From the NCBI RefSeq assembly GCF_024643285.1, contig NZ_JAMSLW010000001.1, positions 186,001 to 250,000 on the forward strand: a DNA stretch of 64,000 nucleotides, given 5' to 3'. The translations under genes were made by a program, and so were the position numbers. The notes beneath the pieces were generated by a model. That model worked only from the letters and a program-made list of their open reading frames with translations. It had not been told where the DNA came from and did no database searches. Positions 32,290 through 39,016 of the stretch are shown here, in pieces. The stretch is from Parapedobacter lycopersici. GTDB taxonomy: Bacteria > Bacteroidota > Bacteroidia > Sphingobacteriales > Sphingobacteriaceae. How positions within the stretch are numbered: the stretch's first letter is position 1; each line of letters begins with the position of its first letter.

Positions 32290-33030
32290 ATGAGCGAGAT
32301 TCATACCAAGTTAGCTATATTGGTTATCACCGTACATCCAGACGATGCCGAATTGGGTTGCGGCGGTACAATCCTGAAACACGTGGCTATGGGCCGTAAG
32401 GTTGGCATCGTCGATCTGACCCGCGGCGAACTCGGTACCCGTGGCACGCCAGAAATACGGGCGGAGGAAGCTTCAGCCGCGGCCAGGATACTTGGCCTGC
32501 ACACCCGGGAGAATCTGGGCATGCGTGACGGGTTTTTTAGTAATGATGAACGTCATCAGCTGCAGGTAGTCCGCGCAATACGCAGGTACCGTCCGGAGAT
32601 AATAATTACCAATGCGCTGCATGACCGCCATCCGGACCATGGACGGGCAGGTGAGTTGGTTAATGATGCCACGTTCCTGGCCGGTCTGCGTAAAGTGGAA
32701 ACGGAGGAGGACAATGGGCAACCACAGGTACCCCATCGTCCGGGGCTACTGCTTCAGCTGATTCAGGACCGCTATATCAAACCGGATATTGCTGTTGATG
32801 TAAGCGACTACTGGCAGCAGAAAGTCCAGGCCATACAGGCATATAAATCACAGTTTTATCATGCTGGATATCATGCAGATGAGCCCGAAACCTATATCTC
32901 CCGGCCGGATTTTATGGAATATATCGAAGCTCGTGCCAGGGAATACGGTAAATATATCGGAGCCCGCTATGCAGAAGGATATACCTGTCGCAGGCTATTG
33001 GGTGTCGATGATCTGTTTTCGCTGAAATAA
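32290..33030 (+). CDS. bshB1: Bacillithiol biosynthesis deacetylase BshB1
   Basis: 246 residues of the LmbE/PIG-L zinc deacetylase fold. The metal motif HPDDAELGCGGT is at about 15-26, a second ligand region is NALHDRHPDHGRAGELV (about 110), and ENLGMRDGFF is typical of BshB1 rather than BshB2. It removes the acetyl group from GlcNAc-malate to give GlcN-malate, the second bacillithiol step. A residue before the HPDD is Val where Ala or Gly is usual. bshA and bshC are not in the window. A -7 match (TATCTTTG, 32249-32256) lies upstream. Confidence 0.92.
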   Translation: MSEIHTKLAILVITVHPDDAELGCGGTILKHVAMGRKVGIVDLTRGELGTRGTPEIRAEEASAAARILGLHTRENLGMRDGFFSNDERHQLQVVRAIRRYRPEIIITNALHDRHPDHGRAGELVNDATFLAGLRKVETEEDNGQPQVPHRPGLLLQLIQDRYIKPDIAVDVSDYWQQKVQAIQAYKSQFYHAGYHADEPETYISRPDFMEYIEARAREYGKYIGARYAEGYTCRRLLGVDDLFSLK

Positions 33031-33083
33031 ATCACCGTACACGTTCGGATGCGGGAATAAGGTAAGGAAGTGGAATTACACGA

Positions 33084-33410
33084 TTAAACGGCAAAGCTCT
33101 CGCCGCAGGCACACGTACGTGACGCATTGGGATTATGGAATTCAAATCCCTTGCCCGTCAGCCCGTCTGAATAGTCGAGTTCAGTGCCGGCAAGATACAG
33201 GTAGGACTTGATATCCAAACAGATGCTGATGCCATTGTCTTCAAATACCTGATCACCTTTTTTTTCCTCATTGTCAAAATGAAGCTTATAACTTAAACCC
33301 GAACAGCCGCCACTTTCCACCGCTACGCGTACAAAGTAGGAATCGTCGTAATTTTCATTGCGCATAATGTCCAGAATGCGCGCTTTAGCCTTTTCTGTTA
33401 CGGTAACCAT
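33084..33410 (-). CDS. A-type iron-sulfur carrier (IscA/ErpA/SufA family)
   Basis: 108 residues. The three conserved cysteines that bind the cluster are present: C36 in SGGCSGLSY and C100/C102 in TCACGESF near the C terminus. A-type carriers hand Fe-S clusters to client proteins. The gene is alone, so IscA, SufA and ErpA cannot be separated. It starts at ATG 33410. Confidence 0.93.
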   Translation of the reverse strand: MVTVTEKAKARILDIMRNENYDDSYFVRVAVESGGCSGLSYKLHFDNEEKKGDQVFEDNGISICLDIKSYLYLAGTELDYSDGLTGKGFEFHNPNASRTCACGESFAV

Positions 33411-33583
33411 CGATTTTATAATTTAATCCCTATGATTATGGTTACAAAGATCGGCATATTCATTAACTATTGCAAAAGTGTGCGTTTGTGGGATGTCATT
33501 TTTTGGACCTCCGATAGTTGATACGGAAATAAGATGAGTTCAATGTGGCAATAGATTAACACCGTTGACTTACAGATCATCAA

Positions 33584-33651
33584 TACACCGTACACCCATT
33601 TTATCCGGATGGATGTACGGTGTAAGTAATTGTAATCCTGCTCCCAGGATT
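33584..33651. repeat. Two adjacent intergenic hairpins
   Basis: Arms 33584-33599 and 33609-33624 form a 16-base stem with one mismatch (G-U if transcribed on the minus strand) and a 9-base loop. A second hairpin follows with AATCCTG (33634-33640 region) pairing with CAGGATT across a 4-base loop, ending at 33651. The region separates the 3' end of the copper/redox cluster from the Fe-S carrier gene; neither stem has a T-run. The remaining gap (33411-33583) holds no gene I would support. Confidence 0.6.
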
Positions 33652-33687
33652 GGTCGATGCCTTTTTGATTAAGCAGGCAAGACGGAA

Positions 33688-34623
33688 TCAGAATGCAAAC
33701 GATACATGTGCCATCCATCGGTTTCCGGCAATAGCCCGGCCATCTGCCAGGTGCTGGTCAAGCAGTAATTGGTGATTCGCACCGAGAGATAGTCTACCGG
33801 CATTCAGTTCCAGGCCGATAATACCGGTAGTTGCATATCCACCGGACTGAGCAACCGGATAGCGTTTCTGTGTTTCATCTTTTTCCTGTGTTTCATACAT
33901 AATTCCGGCATTGGGTGCAATGCGTAGGCGATTCTGAATATTAAACTTATAATAGAAGAGGGCATTTGCAGTGAATTTGTTACCATAGCGGTATGCGTAG
34001 TTGTTCTCCGTATTGATTTTGTAGCTTGCATTCACATTCAACCCCAGATCCATTAACCGGATGTCATAAGCCAGGTTAGCCATGAAATCAGTGCTGGCGG
34101 TACCCAACTGGAAATTGTTAGGTGAGTCCTGTGACGCATTGGTCCGTTCACTGTTATCATACTGTCCTGTAGGTGTTTTTATTCCAACGCCTGCCCATAG
34201 GGAGTGGATTAGGATTTTATTGTCGGAAGTACCGGTTAGCTGTTCAAATACTTTGTAATAGCCCATTAAGGCCACGTCGCCCAAGCCACTTTTCTCACCT
34301 GTCTCCCCACTTCCAGGTATTTCCCTGCGGTTGAAATTGTAGGGGATAATGGCCATCGCCCGCCAGCGGGTACCAAAATTCCAGGCTCCCCAGAGCTCGT
34401 AGCTTTGATAGGTTTCGTCAGCCGTAAGGGGCGTCCGGTTTCCTGATGGACCCAAATGCGTCGTCAGTGGGCGGTGTTGATAACGTAGCCCCACGAACCG
34501 CTTGTTGAAGTCGGGTAGAATGCCGAGATAGTATGTGCCTACGCCACATCCGCAGATGTCGCAGGCAAGGGCAGGACGCAATGCTGCCAGGCAGAGTAAG
34601 AGCGTAATGATGGTATGTTTCAT
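33688..34623 (-). CDS. Outer-membrane-type protein with N-terminal CDICGCG motif
   Basis: 311 residues. A signal peptide (hydrophobic to about residue 19, LRPALA) is followed at once by the mature Cys-rich motif CDICGCGVGTYYLG. The remainder is rich in alternating beta patterns (FVGLRYQHRPL, LGDVALMGYYKVF, NANLAYDI-like stretches) and ends in Phe (HVSFAF), so it is probably an outer-membrane beta-barrel. It is the last gene of the cluster with the di-haem peroxidase and the MbnP-like protein, 12 bases after the peroxidase gene. The N-terminal CxxCxC could bind a metal; this is inference. Confidence 0.7.
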   Translation of the reverse strand: MKHTIITLLLCLAALRPALACDICGCGVGTYYLGILPDFNKRFVGLRYQHRPLTTHLGPSGNRTPLTADETYQSYELWGAWNFGTRWRAMAIIPYNFNRREIPGSGETGEKSGLGDVALMGYYKVFEQLTGTSDNKILIHSLWAGVGIKTPTGQYDNSERTNASQDSPNNFQLGTASTDFMANLAYDIRLMDLGLNVNASYKINTENNYAYRYGNKFTANALFYYKFNIQNRLRIAPNAGIMYETQEKDETQKRYPVAQSGGYATTGIIGLELNAGRLSLGANHQLLLDQHLADGRAIAGNRWMAHVSFAF

Positions 34624-34635
34624 GATAATAATTTT

Positions 34636-35694
34636 TTAATTTCCTACCCCCAGAAAGGGATCGGTTACGAATTTTTCGTCATTCAGGGTTTGCAAAAAGG
34701 CCAGAAGGTCCGTCTTTTCCGTTTCGGAAAGCACAATACCCCGTGACCCATCGGGATTACGCAACAGCGGGTCAAGGTTGGGTGTATCCCGTACTTCGCG
34801 ACGATAGTGCGCAATTACGGCCGCTAAGGTAAGCAGCCTGCCATCGTGCATATACGGTGCGGTATATTTCAGGTTCCGGAGACTGGGTACCTTAAACTTG
34901 TAGCTGTCCGTGTCGTTGAGCGTAATCATATACCGTCCCTGGTCATTAATGGGATTCGGCCCCAGTCCGTTGTCCCGGAACGACTGGTCGGTAAACAACG
35001 GTTCCGCATGACAACCTGCGCAATGTTGCTGATAAACGGCATAACCTGCCTGCTCATCGGCAGTGAAGGCTGTGTGACCCTCGCCGCGCATGACCTTATC
35101 GTATTTTGCATTGCTGCTCACGGCCATCAGCATAAACTGCGATAACGCTTTCAGGAAATTTGCTGTGCTGATTTCCGGACTACCGAATGCCTTTTCGAAT
35201 AACCGGGGGTACTGTGTGTGCTGGCGGAGTTTAGCCAGTACGTTCATGAGCGACTCATCCATTTCCACCGGATTTTCAATGGGTGCGATGGCCAGCATGT
35301 CCAAGTGGAACACACCGCCGTCCCAGAAGAAATTTTTGCTCCAGGCCAGATTCATGATTGGCGGTGCGTTCCGTGTACCCAGTTTGTCATCTATTCCGTG
35401 GCTTACGTCATGACCGTGATGGGTAAACGCGGACGACTGAATGTGACAACTCGCGCACGAGATGGTGTTATTGCGCGATAACAAAGGGTCATGGAATAAC
35501 TTCCTGCCCAGTTCGAAACCTGCCTGGTTAATTGGGTTGGCATTCAGGTCGTACACCGGTTCGGGAAAGTTGGCAGGCTTTTTAAACCCACCGAACCAAT
35601 CAGGAGCAACATCAGCAGCCTTGTTACAGGCTACGGCGCAGGCGAGCACCAGGCAGAGCACGGCGAATGGCCTCCCTGTTCGTCGACTATTCAT
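34636..35694 (-). CDS. Di-haem MauG / cytochrome c peroxidase family lipoprotein (MbnH-like)
   Basis: 352 residues from ATG 35694 (35703 is three codons longer). A lipoprotein signal is visible, with the Cys at ACAVACNKA. Two c-type haem sites are present: CASCH (about 80) and CAGCH (about 230), with MauG-type spacing. Proteins of this type reduce peroxide or oxidise partner Trp residues. It overlaps the upstream MbnP-like gene by a few bases, the same pairing as MbnH with MbnP, where MbnH converts a Trp of MbnP to kynurenine. The stop is 12 bases before the CDICGCG gene. Confidence 0.9.
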   Translation of the reverse strand: MNSRRTGRPFAVLCLVLACAVACNKAADVAPDWFGGFKKPANFPEPVYDLNANPINQAGFELGRKLFHDPLLSRNNTISCASCHIQSSAFTHHGHDVSHGIDDKLGTRNAPPIMNLAWSKNFFWDGGVFHLDMLAIAPIENPVEMDESLMNVLAKLRQHTQYPRLFEKAFGSPEISTANFLKALSQFMLMAVSSNAKYDKVMRGEGHTAFTADEQAGYAVYQQHCAGCHAEPLFTDQSFRDNGLGPNPINDQGRYMITLNDTDSYKFKVPSLRNLKYTAPYMHDGRLLTLAAVIAHYRREVRDTPNLDPLLRNPDGSRGIVLSETEKTDLLAFLQTLNDEKFVTDPFLGVGN

Positions 35695-36535
35695 GTGTGC
35701 CATTCAACGGTTCAAAATTATGTGTATGGTCATGCGAAAACATAGCCTGATAGTTATTGGCAATGAAGGCGCTGTAATCACCGAACATCACAGTAGGGTT
35801 TTCGGCTAGGCTCACGGTTGTACTTCCATTGAAAACCTTGGCCAGGTCAATAAAAAGATGGACATTGCTGCTGAGTTCCTGCCGAACATTGGCGGTGCCT
35901 GCGCGGCTCAGGTCGAGCGATACCGTCTTAATGTTATTGAGCGTCGGCGCGTCATAACCGCCAAATCCACCGATATGATAACGGTATCGGTGCTGTCCGG
36001 TGGGATCACCTTCAAGGTCAACCGCCGGGGATTGACCTTCCATCTTAAAGAAGATGTAACCGCTGTTCCACGACCAGTACATGCCACCACCGTTGTGATC
36101 GCCGGCAGGGTCAAGTACTCCCGTTCGATCTTCTACGGGCATGGTGCTGCGCAGGCTATCTACACCCAGTAGGAACGTCAGCTGAGTATAGTCACCCTCG
36201 GGTACCTCAATATTCACAAACTGGCTTTCGGTAACCGACGCGTCGATGAGGAAATAGCTTTCTTCTTGGGGCACCGTGTAAGTACGTCCGTCGGCTGTAC
36301 TGATTTTGACATTACTGACATAATACTTCAATAGATCAACTGTAAACAATTCGCCGGCTGTATTGGTATATTCGCCACTGCCGAGTTGCAGCTTTTTGTC
36401 ACCCACGATGTGGTCAAACTTCAGCTGCAGGTTACCCGTCAGTTGCTGGTCGGGTGCAGGCCCCTCATTCTTGCTGCAGGAAGTGAATGATAAAACACCT
36501 AAGGTGAATACAATGAGATATTGATAAGCTTTCAT
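35687..36535 (-). CDS. MbnP-like copper-associated lipoprotein
   Basis: 282 residues from ATG 36535 (36574 is an alternative). A lipobox LSFTSC leads to a periplasmic or outer-membrane lipoprotein. LQLKFDHIVGDKKL, FTVDLLKYYVSNVKI and the glycine/tryptophan-rich GGGMYWSWNSGYIFFKMEG are MbnP signatures; the Trp-Ser-Trp is the likely site of oxidative modification by the partner di-haem enzyme. Several His near the C terminus (HDHTHN) could bind Cu. It immediately precedes the di-haem gene in a shared unit, and is preceded by the two small membrane proteins. Confidence 0.9.
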   Translation of the reverse strand: MKAYQYLIVFTLGVLSFTSCSKNEGPAPDQQLTGNLQLKFDHIVGDKKLQLGSGEYTNTAGELFTVDLLKYYVSNVKISTADGRTYTVPQEESYFLIDASVTESQFVNIEVPEGDYTQLTFLLGVDSLRSTMPVEDRTGVLDPAGDHNGGGMYWSWNSGYIFFKMEGQSPAVDLEGDPTGQHRYRYHIGGFGGYDAPTLNNIKTVSLDLSRAGTANVRQELSSNVHLFIDLAKVFNGSTTVSLAENPTVMFGDYSAFIANNYQAMFSHDHTHNFEPLNGTHE

Positions 36536-36638
36536 TTTGCTGTTATTTGTTATTCCGATAATTTGTTTATTCACAGGATATCCGGTATAGAACAGCTACT
36601 GCTCCATACGATGGGATTATGTAATTATGGTGTGTTAA

Positions 36639-37061
36639 TTATCCTGCAATTGGGGGTCGGAAAATATCAGCGTCGGGGAGGAAAGAATAAGGAGTTAGTG
36701 CATGAGGGAAACGATGGGTGGCCTTTTCATCGAAGTCAATTGGCGTGATGCGGTAATACTGTACAATAAAGGCGGGGATTTCGAGTTTCAAAGTTCCAGA
36801 GGCCCCCTGGTTGGTTTCTTTTCGGTCTGAATCATCCAGGTTCCGCAGTTTCTGCGCCAAAATACATTTGCCATTGCAATGCAGTTCGGGTTTATCCCGG
36901 TTGATGCACAGGTTAGCCACAATAGATGTACGGTTCGCCTCATACCAGGCAAATACACCAAGGCTACCCAAGCATTGGTAAACCAACGACAATAGCAGTA
37001 AAAATGCGACCGGGGTTTTCAATCCATGTAAAAATGAAACGGAACGAACAAGAAGTTCCAC
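36639..37061 (-). CDS. Small membrane protein with Cx9Cx3C motif and C-terminal IFRPP (paralogue A)
   Basis: 140 residues. One N-terminal hydrophobic segment (about 17-38) is followed by NRTSIVANLC and a C-INRDKPELH-C-NGK-C arrangement (Cx9Cx3C), then a polar region and the end DADIFRPPIAG. The next gene upstream on the same strand (37120-37491) shows the same Cys spacing and the same IFRPP end, so the two are paralogues. CxxxC is a known Cu-binding form in other proteins; a metallochaperone or assembly role is speculation. I do not recognise a named family. It precedes mbnP by 103 bases. Confidence 0.7.
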   Translation of the reverse strand: MELLVRSVSFLHGLKTPVAFLLLLSLVYQCLGSLGVFAWYEANRTSIVANLCINRDKPELHCNGKCILAQKLRNLDDSDRKETNQGASGTLKLEIPAFIVQYYRITPIDFDEKATHRFPHALTPYSFLPDADIFRPPIAG

Positions 37062-37119
37062 TTAAAACAAAAAATGAGTGCTGCATGCAACTGGGCATGC
37101 GATGATAGGGACTGTGGGG

Positions 37120-37491
37120 CTAAGCGGCCGGTGGACGGAAAATAGATGCGAAAAACGTATGGACATGCAGAGATTCACGGTAAAGTGACTGCCGTTCGGT
37201 ACGCCGGTCGGTTGACGGACGCAGTAAGTTAACGACGCCTAAATGCTGGTTGAACAGCAGCGCTTCCTTGAATTTAATATCGGGCTGCCGTCTTTCCTTT
37301 TCTTCCTGTTCTTTCAGTTTTTTCATCAAGACGCACTGTCCAAGGCAGGAATTGTTGAGTGTAAAGCGATTTTCGCAGCGGGTTTTGGCAATCAAATCCC
37401 GATTGGCGTAAAATCCGACTGAAATCCATAACGTAGCGAAGCTTTGTAGCAGTACAATGGGGATCAGCAATATAAATACAATGCGTTTCAC
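37120..37491 (-). CDS. Small membrane protein with Cx9Cx3C motif and C-terminal IFRPP (paralogue B)
   Basis: 123 residues from GTG 37491. An in-frame ATG at 37623 would add 44 residues, but the promoter -7 element TAAGTTTG (37524-37531, minus strand) lies between the two starts, so the GTG is favoured. A membrane segment (IVFILLIPIVLLQSFATL) is followed by NRDLIAKTRC and C-ENRFTLNNS-C-LGQ-C, the same Cx9Cx3C pattern as paralogue A, and the protein ends ASIFRPPAA. It is the first gene of the cluster and is separated from A by 58 bases. Function unknown. Confidence 0.65.
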   Translation of the reverse strand: MKRIVFILLIPIVLLQSFATLWISVGFYANRDLIAKTRCENRFTLNNSCLGQCVLMKKLKEQEEKERRQPDIKFKEALLFNQHLGVVNLLRPSTDRRTERQSLYRESLHVHTFFASIFRPPAA

Positions 37492-37523
37492 GGGATGGCT
37501 ATGGTGTGCTGTTTCGTCGGCAA

Positions 37524-37555
37524 CAAACTTAGTTAAATTTACTTTTATATGCAAT
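37524..37555 (-). promoter_or_regulatory. Promoter of the MbnP-region cluster
   Basis: Minus strand ATTG (37552-37555) is followed after 20 bases by a perfect TAAGTTTG (37524-37531), a full Bacteroidota promoter. It precedes the GTG start of the first small membrane protein and could drive the whole minus-strand cluster down to 33688. Confidence 0.65.
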
Positions 37556-37674
37556 TTAACTGCACTGGATACGATAGGGTATTCACTGCATCTGACTTTC
37601 TTGGATTCGCTGACGCGCGGCATTTATCAACCTATCGAAAAGGGCACAGGAAATCTGTCGTCAGAATACACCTA

Positions 37675-38286
37675 CTATTGTCTGACAGAGCCGGCACGTC
37701 TGAAATATTTGTAATACCAGGTGTCGCGCAGGTCGCTGATGATGACTCCACGGCTGGTGGAAACGTGGACGAACTTGCTATTCTGCAGGTAGATACCTAC
37801 ATGATCGATGCTTCCCCGTCCAAATGAAAAGAAGACCAGGTCACCTTCCTTAAGTTGCCTTTCGTATTTTCGCTTAACCTGCTGGGCCATGTCCTGTGAA
37901 GTTCGGGGTATCGACTTGCCATAAACGTCGTGCATGACCATACCTACAAAGGCAGAACAGTCGATACCCCGCCGGTCAGTGCCTCCCAGCCGGTGCGGGG
38001 TGCCTATCCATTGGTCAATGTATTGGTACAACTTCTGGTTTTCCAGTTCGCCGGGTCGTACGCCAAGCACTTCCGCATACCCTTCGAGTAACCCGCTTTT
38101 GCCGTGTGCTGGCACATTCCTTCCTGCCGATGATGCATCGGTAGGGATTGTTGCATTCCTTGCTGGCTTACGGTAGGGAACCGAAGAACCCGTCCGGTTT
38201 GGCGGAAGCGCATTTCTGCGGGTAAGACAGCCGCTTAGTAAAATGGAAAGCAAAAGGCAGAAGGAGAGGGTCCCGAATCGATACAT
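37675..38286 (-). CDS. NlpC/P60 family lipoprotein (peptidoglycan endopeptidase)
   Basis: 203 residues from ATG 38286 (38295 is an alternative). A lipobox ILLSGC is at about 19-24, so the protein is a cell-envelope lipoprotein. The NlpC/P60 catalytic Cys is in GIDCSAFVGM and the His in GSIDHVGIYL, followed by VSTSRGVIISDL. These are papain-like enzymes that cut peptide stems of peptidoglycan. Its 5' region overlaps the divergent engB upstream sequence. Single gene. Confidence 0.9.
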   Translation of the reverse strand: MYRFGTLSFCLLLSILLSGCLTRRNALPPNRTGSSVPYRKPARNATIPTDASSAGRNVPAHGKSGLLEGYAEVLGVRPGELENQKLYQYIDQWIGTPHRLGGTDRRGIDCSAFVGMVMHDVYGKSIPRTSQDMAQQVKRKYERQLKEGDLVFFSFGRGSIDHVGIYLQNSKFVHVSTSRGVIISDLRDTWYYKYFRRAGSVRQ

Positions 38287-38347
38287 GACGTACATTTGGG
38301 CGACTAATTTAGTGAATTTACCCGGAAGGGGAAAGAAATGGTATGAA

Positions 38348-38380
38348 TTTGCGCAGCAACGCCATTTAGTCTTACCTTTG
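38348..38380 (+). promoter_or_regulatory. Promoter of engB, with a leaderless or near-leaderless start
   Basis: TTTG (38348-38351) is 21 bases from a perfect TACCTTTG (38373-38380). The engB ATG begins at 38384, only three bases after the -7 box, so the transcript may start at or next to the ATG. Confidence 0.65.
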
Positions 38381-38383
38381 CAT

Positions 38384-39016
38384 ATGCTTATCAAAACGGC
38401 AGTATTTATTTGTAGCAATACCCGGGTCGATCAATTACCGAAACCGAGTCTTCCCGAATATGCATTTATCGGGAGGTCTAATGTAGGTAAATCATCGTTG
38501 ATTAATGCCCTTACGGGCAAACGAAGCTTGGCAAAGACATCGCAGACACCTGGTAAAACACAGGTTATCAATCATTTTTTGATAAATGACGATTGGTATC
38601 TGGTGGATTTGCCTGGCTATGGTTTTGCAAAAACTTCCAAATCCAATCGTGCTGCATGGGAAAAGTTTATCCGACGGTACTTGTTGATGCGCGAAAACCT
38701 GCAGTGTGTTTTTGTGCTGGTTGACAGCCGGCACGGGCCGCAGCAGATCGACCTTGATTTTTGCTGTTGGCTAGGTGGGCAGCGTATTCCATTTATGCTG
38801 GTTTTTACAAAGGCTGATAAACTGTCTCAGGCCGGGTCCGCAGCGAACATCAAGAAATTCCGACAGGCGCTACTACAATGGTTTGAAACGGTTCCTCCCC
38901 ATTTTCTCACATCGGCCGAAACCCGTATGGGGGGCGAACCATTGTTAATGGCAATCGATGAGATCAATCGTAATTTTAATGAACAACAGATTAACGCGCT
39001 GGACAACGATTTATGA
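38384..39016 (+). CDS. engB: Ribosome biogenesis GTPase EngB (YihA/YsxC)
   Basis: 210 residues from ATG 38384. G motifs: G1 GRSNVGKSS (about 29-37), G2 TPGKT, G3 DLPGYGFA, G4 TKADK, and the C-terminal SAETRMG. EngB assists 50S subunit maturation. A start further upstream at 38243 would overlap the divergent NlpC gene and is not supported. The ubiA-type gene begins within its stop codon (ATGA), so both are co-translated. Confidence 0.95.
   Translation: MLIKTAVFICSNTRVDQLPKPSLPEYAFIGRSNVGKSSLINALTGKRSLAKTSQTPGKTQVINHFLINDDWYLVDLPGYGFAKTSKSNRAAWEKFIRRYLLMRENLQCVFVLVDSRHGPQQIDLDFCCWLGGQRIPFMLVFTKADKLSQAGSAANIKKFRQALLQWFETVPPHFLTSAETRMGGEPLLMAIDEINRNFNEQQINALDNDL

Follow-up and report, generated by a model that had tools for sequence, protein, structure and literature searches.

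Small Bacteroidota proteins with a cysteine site and a terminal diproline: candidate metal-sensing leader peptides at an MbnP/MbnH operon of Parapedobacter lycopersici

Introduction

The small proteins CruR of Bordetella pertussis and CutF of Rhodobacter capsulatus, encoded by copper-sensing upstream open reading frames (uORFs) in Proteobacteria, are the closest described counterparts of two genes, S2 and S1, at the head of a minus-strand operon in the bacterium Parapedobacter lycopersici (Bacteroidota). The operon lies in a window of 64,000 nucleotides (nt), the whole stretch of DNA that was analysed (RefSeq assembly GCF_024643285.1, contig NZ_JAMSLW010000001.1, positions 186,001 to 250,000 of the forward strand), and S serves below as the family name for the window's two small proteins and their relatives. 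CruR, encoded in cruR-bfrG-bp2921, combines a CXXC motif with a RAPP motif at a spacing of 45 residues and is followed by a gap of 162 bp; copper on the nascent chain was concluded to relieve the arrest at RAPP, whereupon Rho stops transcription before the TonB receptor gene (PMC9426467). Operons with CruR carry genes for TonB-dependent transporters and for PepSY_TM, Sco and MbnPH-like proteins (PMC9426467), and CruR arrest has been demonstrated in vitro (PMC12992588). CutF bears CxxxC and PP motifs; the mechanism proposed for it is a stall that copper lengthens and that opens the stem-loop covering the start of the next gene (PMC9973294).

Surveys of such peptides have also touched on the Bacteroidota. 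A list of 5,334 CutF-like proteins has a sizeable Bacteroidota share in its list D, put at 19 or 40% depending on the way of counting (PMC9973294), and a survey of 2025 reported RAPP/RGPP uORFs of copper-related genes to be lacking in the phylum, while describing a TonB-related RAPP/RGPP class in Gram-negatives at large (PMC12992588). In the main text of PMC9973294 we found no Cx9Cx3C class described, and MbnP, HYC and Flavobacter are absent from it. The open-access literature yielded neither a description of the S class nor a paper on the term HYC_CC_PP.

Here we report that S1 and S2 belong to a family spread across the Bacteroidota, whose members end in a diproline (PP) at a nearly fixed distance behind a cysteine site and stand ahead of a long, promoter-poor gap and of genes for the cell envelope. 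The original prediction, a note made from the window's sequence, had counted both among four products whose Cys motifs would form a copper or redox relay; for the two small proteins this found no support, as they have the features of leader peptides and the commonest gene behind members of the family encodes a TonB receptor. Since the conserved PP, the fixed Cys-to-PP distance and the long gap fit a cis-acting leader better than a relay protein, we regard S1 and S2 as probable metal-sensing translation-arrest uORFs, acting in cis with either sign of response.

Results

The S family and its distribution

Relatives of S1 and S2 were collected in 180 loci (60 + 40 + 80). Full-length S queries supplied the sets of 60 and 40 loci, and a peptide pattern of the Cys region with tblastn supplied the 80, these being the best 80 of 591 relatives found by a scan of named genomes, among them Chitinophaga, Spirosoma, Hymenobacter, Pedobacter, Flavobacterium and Chryseobacterium. 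Within the loci, a model restricted to the N-terminal half found 202 S open reading frames (ORFs), of which 201 are complete at the 3' end; the S of L101, cut by a contig end, is excluded from the PP and spacing counts. A search with S1 of 60 genomes, its own and relatives, gave a match in 47, and a profile from 40 S proteins matched in 158 of 395 genomes sampled across the phylum (expectation value, E, 1e-4). On the window's own genome the profile found S1 and S2 only (E up to 1). The trimmed S proteins of the first 60 loci are 120-132 residues long. One S locus (L213) stands in a record titled Candidatus Kuenenia stuttgartiensis, which may be a mis-binned Bacteroidota contig.

The family is covered by no Pfam or NCBIfam model: with S1, S2 and 38 relatives scanned, the best E values were 0.0011 for Pfam and 0.00034 for NCBIfam, and the widest-matching families reached at most 4 and 2 of the 40 proteins, respectively. 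A weak match of S2 to DUF6769 (E 0.0028, 18.7 bits, cut-off 27) hinted at kinship with that family, which we rejected, with only 2 of 40 members matching at E 0.1; in 148 phylum genomes DUF6769 had no match at E 0.001.

A cysteine site, a ruler and a terminal diproline

Only six columns (C40, C50, G52, C54, P119 and P120) are invariant among 40 diverse S proteins, and CxGxC is present in all 199 distinct ones. PP lies within the last 12 residues of 200 of the 201 complete ORFs, followed by one to nine residues before the stop, most commonly two; among control genes of the first 60 loci a PP near the end occurs in 12 of 943, and in 7 of the 232 that encode 100-200 residues. The count is 90 of 91 in the 80-locus set, whose retrieval pattern does not contain PP. 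It is 46 of 46 where the N-terminal model was applied to a second set of loci, which had been retrieved by the full-length profile. From the third Cys to PP the distance is 63-71 residues (median 67, standard deviation 1.7) in all 194 distinct S proteins with both Cx9Cx3C and PP; four S with a different first spacing (L168, L170-L172) are in the PP count and outside the spacing count. A residue H, R, Q or K precedes the proline run in 179 of 198 distinct proteins, F stands one position further upstream in 161, and F-[H/R/Q/K]-P-P is complete in 155.

Between the third Cys and PP, the 40-member alignment has no conserved column. The predicted model of S1 has helices at residues 2-29, 31-37 and 52-72 and a predicted local distance difference test score (pLDDT, mean per 10 residues) of 83-92 up to residue 70, beyond which it falls to 51-68 with nearly no structure. 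A ruler that lacks sequence conservation and ends at the stop suits a nascent-chain sensor and is not needed by a mature carrier. A near relative of 126 residues, L066_20, is a Cys-free small protein ending QFRPPRA, which may be an arrest peptide with another input.

Long, promoter-poor gaps behind S

A same-strand gene begins within 500 nt downstream of 190 of the 202 S genes. Two of the remaining 12 stand at contig ends; the other ten are likely gaps of the simple gene caller, since same-strand open frames of 91-221 codons follow within the next 700 nt. The gap behind S has a median of 100 nt, compared with 11.5 nt for the next gene pair. The box TANNTTTG occurs in 2 of the 175 gaps of 40 nt or more behind S, compared with 151 of 655 same-strand gaps elsewhere, which suggests that the genes following S lack promoters of their own; the fuller pattern TTG/TTT-N18-23-TANNTTTG occurs in none of the 175, the S2-S1 gap among them.

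Upstream of S the same box is enriched, being found within 150 nt in 116 of 199 S genes and in 349 of 1943 other genes. In 76 of the 199 its end is no more than 15 nt away from the start, compared with 16 of 614 others (upstream gap of 100 nt or more), and the median distance from box end to S start is 8 nt, which suggests that many S messages are near-leaderless, with very short 5' leaders. A same-strand gene lies upstream of S in 132 of 195 cases and is never another S.

Exchangeable envelope cargo

The first gene behind S (n = 190) encodes a TonB receptor in 74 cases, an outer-membrane protein of the type of O, the window's channel, in 38, MbnP in 37, a YtkA-like protein in 18, another S in 4 and SCO in 3. 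These names are Pfam matches of cluster representatives, the O-type representative having no Pfam match. Together, 177 of the 190 fall into envelope groups, named after the fact, or are S itself, and no Sec, YidC or Dsb protein was found among the ten cluster representatives scanned. Genes for PepSY_TM proteins come after those for the receptors at 16 loci. Two loci, L075 and L094, have the order S-YtkA-TonB-S-MbnP-MbnH, with one S ahead of each of two sub-units. On a tree of 64 S proteins the first-gene label changes 31 times; the cargo behind S is exchangeable and S is not MbnP-specific. In many S operons the gene downstream of the TonB receptor belongs to a cluster of 34 members (cluster 4) whose products, of about 420 residues, begin like lipoproteins and weakly match a BNR repeat (e.g. 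L065:5913-7184:-).

The original prediction was to count as refuted if the small genes proved unlinked to MbnP/MbnH in other genomes; by this test they are linked to MbnP in part. When matches that start within 6 kb of each other, irrespective of strand, are counted as linked in 60 genomes including the window's own, MbnP is near 32 of 65 S genes and S is near 27 of 71 MbnP genes, rising to 20 of 26 MbnP genes in the window's own family.

RNA features around the gap

Compared with other gaps, the one behind S is more strongly folded (median z -1.99 vs -0.64, mononucleotide shuffles, 163 each, the controls drawn from 497), and its T-runs resemble those of controls (63 vs 59 of 163). At its 3' end S is rich in C, poor in G and only weakly paired. 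Over the last 150 nt the bias of C over G is 0.227, compared with -0.065 in 2058 genes, and pairing is slightly raised in the last 10 nt (0.592 vs 0.500) and lowered at nt -40 to -11 (0.33-0.39 vs 0.46-0.53). Behind the stop it is like that of controls.

Comparison with CruR, CutF and other arrest peptides

S resembles CruR (DUF2946, PF11162) as a small exported-type ORF ahead of copper genes, with a Cys metal motif, a C-terminal PP, a fixed Cys-to-PP spacing and a long gap to the next gene. Unlike CruR, it has Cx9CxGxC in place of CXXC, mostly F-[H/R/Q/K]-P-P in place of R-A-P-P, and a spacing of about 67 residues in place of 45. None of 40 S proteins matches DUF2946 at E 0.1, and hhalign of S against four Bacteroidota DUF2946 sequences gives a probability of 0.3%; judged by sequence, S is not DUF2946. 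In the phylum, DUF2946 is found in 11 of 395 genomes (E 1e-3), five of them over the cut-off, and thus coexists there with the more widespread S. Four Bacteroidota DUF2946 proteins (L253-L256, from genomes G327, G306, G023 and G294) end in RAPP or RGPP and a short tail, and one of these genomes, G023, has S as well.

The likeness to CutF lies in CxxxC, a PP within 15 residues of the end, a length under 150 residues and a same-strand gene downstream, which are filters of the CutF-like list; a further filter is a cleaved Sec signal peptide (PMC9973294), and the S1 model has a hydrophobic N-terminal helix. As S passes the stated filters if such a cleaved peptide is predicted, it may already be in that list, undescribed. 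It differs from R. capsulatus CutF in having no extra folding over the next start, where the CutF stem-loop would lie. With the RAPP/RGPP arrest peptides at large (ApdA, ApdP, CruR and others) S shares a small ORF, a localisation signal, a PP motif near the stop and a place upstream of regulated genes, and it differs in the motif itself.

The operon of Parapedobacter lycopersici

The window operon is transcribed in the order S2, S1, P, H, O (Table 1). The original prediction had described five clustered minus-strand genes behind one promoter, with two paralogous Cx9Cx3C small proteins, and this description holds: all five ORFs are present, the motif occurs in both small proteins, and S1 as query retrieves S2 at E 2.7e-7 with 27% identity. 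I-F-R-P-P stands at the C-terminus of both small proteins, with three more residues ahead of the stop in S1 and two in S2.

Table 1. Coordinates of the S2-S1-P-H-O operon within the window
Feature	Position	Strand	Remarks
O	33688-34623	minus	outer-membrane beta-barrel channel (predicted), CDICGCG after signal region, fold like FapF / COG4313
H	34636-35703	minus	di-haem MauG/MbnH-like enzyme, two CxxCH (CASCH, CAGCH)
P	35687-36535 (ATG; GTG at 36574)	minus	MbnP-family lipoprotein-like protein
S1-to-P gap	36536-36638	minus	103 nt to MbnP ATG, 64 nt to GTG
S1	36639-37022	minus	second small protein, 127 residues from TTG 37022; GTG at 37061; C-terminus I-F-R-P-P-I-A-G
PP codons of S1	36651-36656	minus	70 residues after third Cys, three before stop
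Cx9Cx3C motif of S1 (CINRDKPELHCNGKC)	36864-36908	minus	coordinates counted on sequence
S2-to-S1 gap	37023-37119	minus	97 nt, without TTG/TTT-N18-23-TANNTTTG
S2	37120-37491	minus	first small protein, 123 residues from GTG 37491; hydrophobic N-terminus, Cx9CxGxC, C-terminus I-F-R-P-P-A-A
PP codons of S2	37129-37134	minus	67 residues after third Cys, two before stop
Cx9Cx3C motif of S2 (CENRFTLNNSCLGQC)	37333-37377	minus	coordinates counted on sequence
Presumed Bacteroidota-type promoter	37524-37554	minus	TTG 37554-37552, 20 nt, TAAGTTTG 37531-37524; reads into S2

The boxes at the cluster head we take to be a Bacteroidota-type promoter, and the distance from the TAAGTTTG box to the S2 start is 32 nt. 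The pattern is no rarity, with 14 occurrences on the minus strand of the window, and a sigma-70 scan of the window does not have this element among its matches; the counts of sigma-70 promoters and intrinsic terminators were 13 and 5, against 11.7 and 8.3 in shuffles. S2 as a 167-codon ORF from 37623 was rejected as too long, because the promoter sits inside that ORF. The GTG start agrees with relatives, most of which have a likely start 38-39 residues ahead of the first Cys, an agreement that is partly built in, as the start-picking script preferred starts near 39 residues before the first Cys. An Rfam scan of 33000-38500 gave no match up to E 0.1.

The pairing of MbnP with MbnH noted in the original prediction was borne out at the level of Pfam. 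P passes the cut-off of MbnP (PF20243; 175.5 bits, cut-off 27) and H that of CCP_MauG (PF03150; 183.2 bits, cut-off 25.6). Against the NCBI models P reaches 47.4 bits for MbnP_like_WxW (TIGR04052, curated cut-off 140) and H 211.4 bits for the MbnH family di-heme enzyme (TIGR04039, curated cut-off 362.85), and as both lie under these cut-offs they are family relatives, not proven orthologues, of the proteins of methanobactin operons. P resembles those in its Pfam match and its WxW segment, MYWSWNSGY, which aligns weakly (E 0.0056) with the solved structure 7l6g, taken by us as MbnP; it differs from the four-Cys form of TIGR04052 in having one Cys only, in the signal region. The best solved relative of H is 6e1c, a 'Di-heme enzyme' that we take to be MbnH. 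In MauG and MbnH, as compared with cytochrome c peroxidase, an axial Tyr replaces Met on one haem. Among the clustered relatives from the S loci, all 75 MbnP proteins match PF20243, with W.W..[GA] in 49 and absent in 26, and all 47 H proteins match TIGR04039 at E 0.001, which is an E threshold and not the family cut-off.

O, which the same prediction had called an outer-membrane-type protein with CDICGCG, indeed matches Phenol_MetA_deg (37.5 bits, cut-off 22) and is modelled as a barrel of the same kind as the FapF / COG4313 channels (Foldseek E 6e-11 to 9e-9, template modelling score by query 0.54-0.64), differing from them by an identity of only 14-16% and by the CDICGCG segment, which has low confidence in the model. 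C..CGC stands near the start in 34 of the 63 proteins of the O cluster; it is invariant in an alignment (A4) of 26 sequences, the window O and 25 of the other 33 such proteins, because these were chosen for that motif. The cluster (L065-L252) has a CDxCGC form of about 300-340 residues beside a second form, mostly of 340-395 residues, that has a different N-terminus, Cys-rich or Cys-free, and a segment resembling APxGVMxDHxH.

Origin of the S2-S1 tandem

By tree path the nearest rows to S2 are L070_12, which is followed by SCO and then a second S, and L066_10, which is followed directly by an S. In this quick tree, which leaves 38 of its 61 inner branches open, S1 groups (98*) with an S of L072 and with the second S in the L070 and L066 genomes. 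SCO-family genes are present elsewhere in the window's genome. The simplest reading would be that the window and genome G002 lost an SCO gene that had stood between two S modules, or that G005 gained one. The presence of SCO between the two S of one relative suggests that each S once served its own downstream gene, and the tandem of the window would then look like two gates in series on one operon.

Discussion

A leader-peptide model for the operon

If S1 and S2 act as leader peptides, the hydrophobic N-terminal helix should carry the nascent chain to the translocon, followed by the Cx9CxGxC metal site and a loose tail closed by F-R-P-P at the stop. When there is little of the metal, most likely copper, translation of S would stall at PP, close to its end, and by keeping the message open the halted ribosome would let RNA polymerase and ribosomes proceed to MbnP, MbnH and the outer-membrane channel. 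At this point some 66 residues would separate the Cys site from the peptidyl-transferase centre, which, given the length of the ribosome tunnel, places it beyond the tunnel; a ruler of about 67 residues would put CxGxC outside both ribosome and translocon. Metal binding there may cause folding or pulling that releases the stall, translation of S would end, and transcription or translation of the remaining genes would stop in the gap behind it. The gap between S1 and MbnP is thus the putative site of the expression decision, and S2 and S1 may be two such gates in series.

This sign of the response, that of CruR, has about an even chance of being the right one; it is favoured because the cargo resembles acquisition genes and the downstream start has no extra folding. 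The cargo of MbnP, MbnH and the CDICGCG channel would serve envelope copper handling or acquisition. MbnH may oxidise a Trp in the WxW segment of MbnP, a reaction known from methanotrophs.

Several observations weigh against an arrest-peptide function. A literature search, with most subscription papers outside its reach, found no experiment on an S protein. The S motif reads F-[H/R]-P-P in place of R-[A/G]-P-P; in CruR the change R139A abolishes arrest, and the Arg of SecM has been called irreplaceable (PMC12992588), so that arrest by FHPP or FRPP cannot be taken for granted. The proline motif of CutF alone gave no stall in a LepB fusion (PMC9973294). Among the S proteins themselves, 43 of 198 depart from F-[H/R/Q/K]-P-P, and one, L182_2, ends without PP; its frames, when examined, gave no clear motif-bearing reading, and it was counted as a miss. 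S is not always the first gene, a same-strand gene lying 50 nt or less upstream in 35 of 195 cases, and the cargo label is clustered on the S tree and not random (the 31 changes compare with a shuffled mean of 37.5). Folding over the downstream start is not increased (median minimum free energy -2.9 vs -3.1 in controls, p 0.56). The bias of C over G, a feature that a Rho site would explain, is gone at fourfold sites (p 0.10) and may thus reflect the amino-acid make-up of the S 3' end; as proof of a Rho site it was dropped. Copper as the metal, and the copper link of the cluster as a whole, we infer from a gene context that speaks for metal handling. Finally, the Cys site and the helix behind it could serve a mature metal-binding protein.

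That last point leads to the reading of S1 and S2 as mature carriers or reductants of copper (or zinc), anchored in the inner membrane and feeding MbnP, with PP as a contact or targeting motif. The conserved Cx9CxGxC, a model of S1 in which residues 31-70 have a mean pLDDT of 83-88, and the adjoining envelope metal genes would all suit such a protein; we nevertheless consider it improbable, because PP keeps to the stop and to a fixed Cys distance across a tail that is mostly unstructured and shows no conservation, promoter boxes are almost absent from the long gap that follows S, S recurs ahead of separate sub-units in one gene run (L075, L094), and the cargo varies. That the common C-terminus is an effect of composition or an annotation artefact has practically no chance of being correct: PP does stand near the end of some other small proteins (the 7 of 232 above), and this is set against 200 of 201 with 12 of 943 in controls, a spacing that deviates by 1.7 residues over 194 proteins, and a PP that recurs both in the second set (46 of 46, with its full-length retrieval of loci) and in the set retrieved by the Cys region alone (90 of 91).

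Within the leader-peptide reading, a response of the opposite sign, as in CutF, would have the metal prolong the stall and turn the downstream genes on. CxxxC, here CxGxC, is the motif of CutF, which requires co-translational export (PMC9973294), and the gap behind S is the more folded one; such a response is possible but unlikely, since the fold covering the start is no stronger than in controls and the cargo of TonB receptors, PepSY_TM and MbnP/MbnH resembles that of CruR operons, and copper lowers the expression of the one in Bordetella (PMC9426467). S might also monitor protein export or disulfide state, with the Cys as redox sensors and no part for metal. A localisation signal with a C-terminal PP-type motif is common to Sec-monitoring arrest peptides, and DsbA/thioredoxin genes too are found downstream of RAPP/RGPP uORFs (PMC10987492; PMC12992588), yet nearly all first genes behind S fall into the envelope groups (named post hoc) or are S, and Sec, YidC and Dsb are absent from the ten cluster representatives, so that we hold this to be highly improbable. 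Metal-sensing arrest in cis thus remains the preferred account of S1 and S2.

Implications

A broader proposal, on which we are evenly divided, is that the Bacteroidota have a phylum-wide metal-sensing arrest class of their own, portable and often near-leaderless, with no sequence kinship to CruR/DUF2946, a new arrest motif, F-[H/R]-P-P at the stop, and a ruler of about 67 residues; it would be placed ahead of TonB receptor, MbnP/MbnH, YtkA or SCO genes, and in P. lycopersici two copies would form a double gate on the MbnP-MbnH-OMP operon. If this is true, S would represent a second, seemingly unrelated route to nascent-chain metal sensing, with another arrest motif and another ruler length. 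Cx9CxGxC together with PP at the stop would then be a simple rule for finding metal-regulated operons in the Bacteroidota, including those of TonB receptors of unknown substrate, and would predict regulation for the MbnP/MbnH genes of the phylum.

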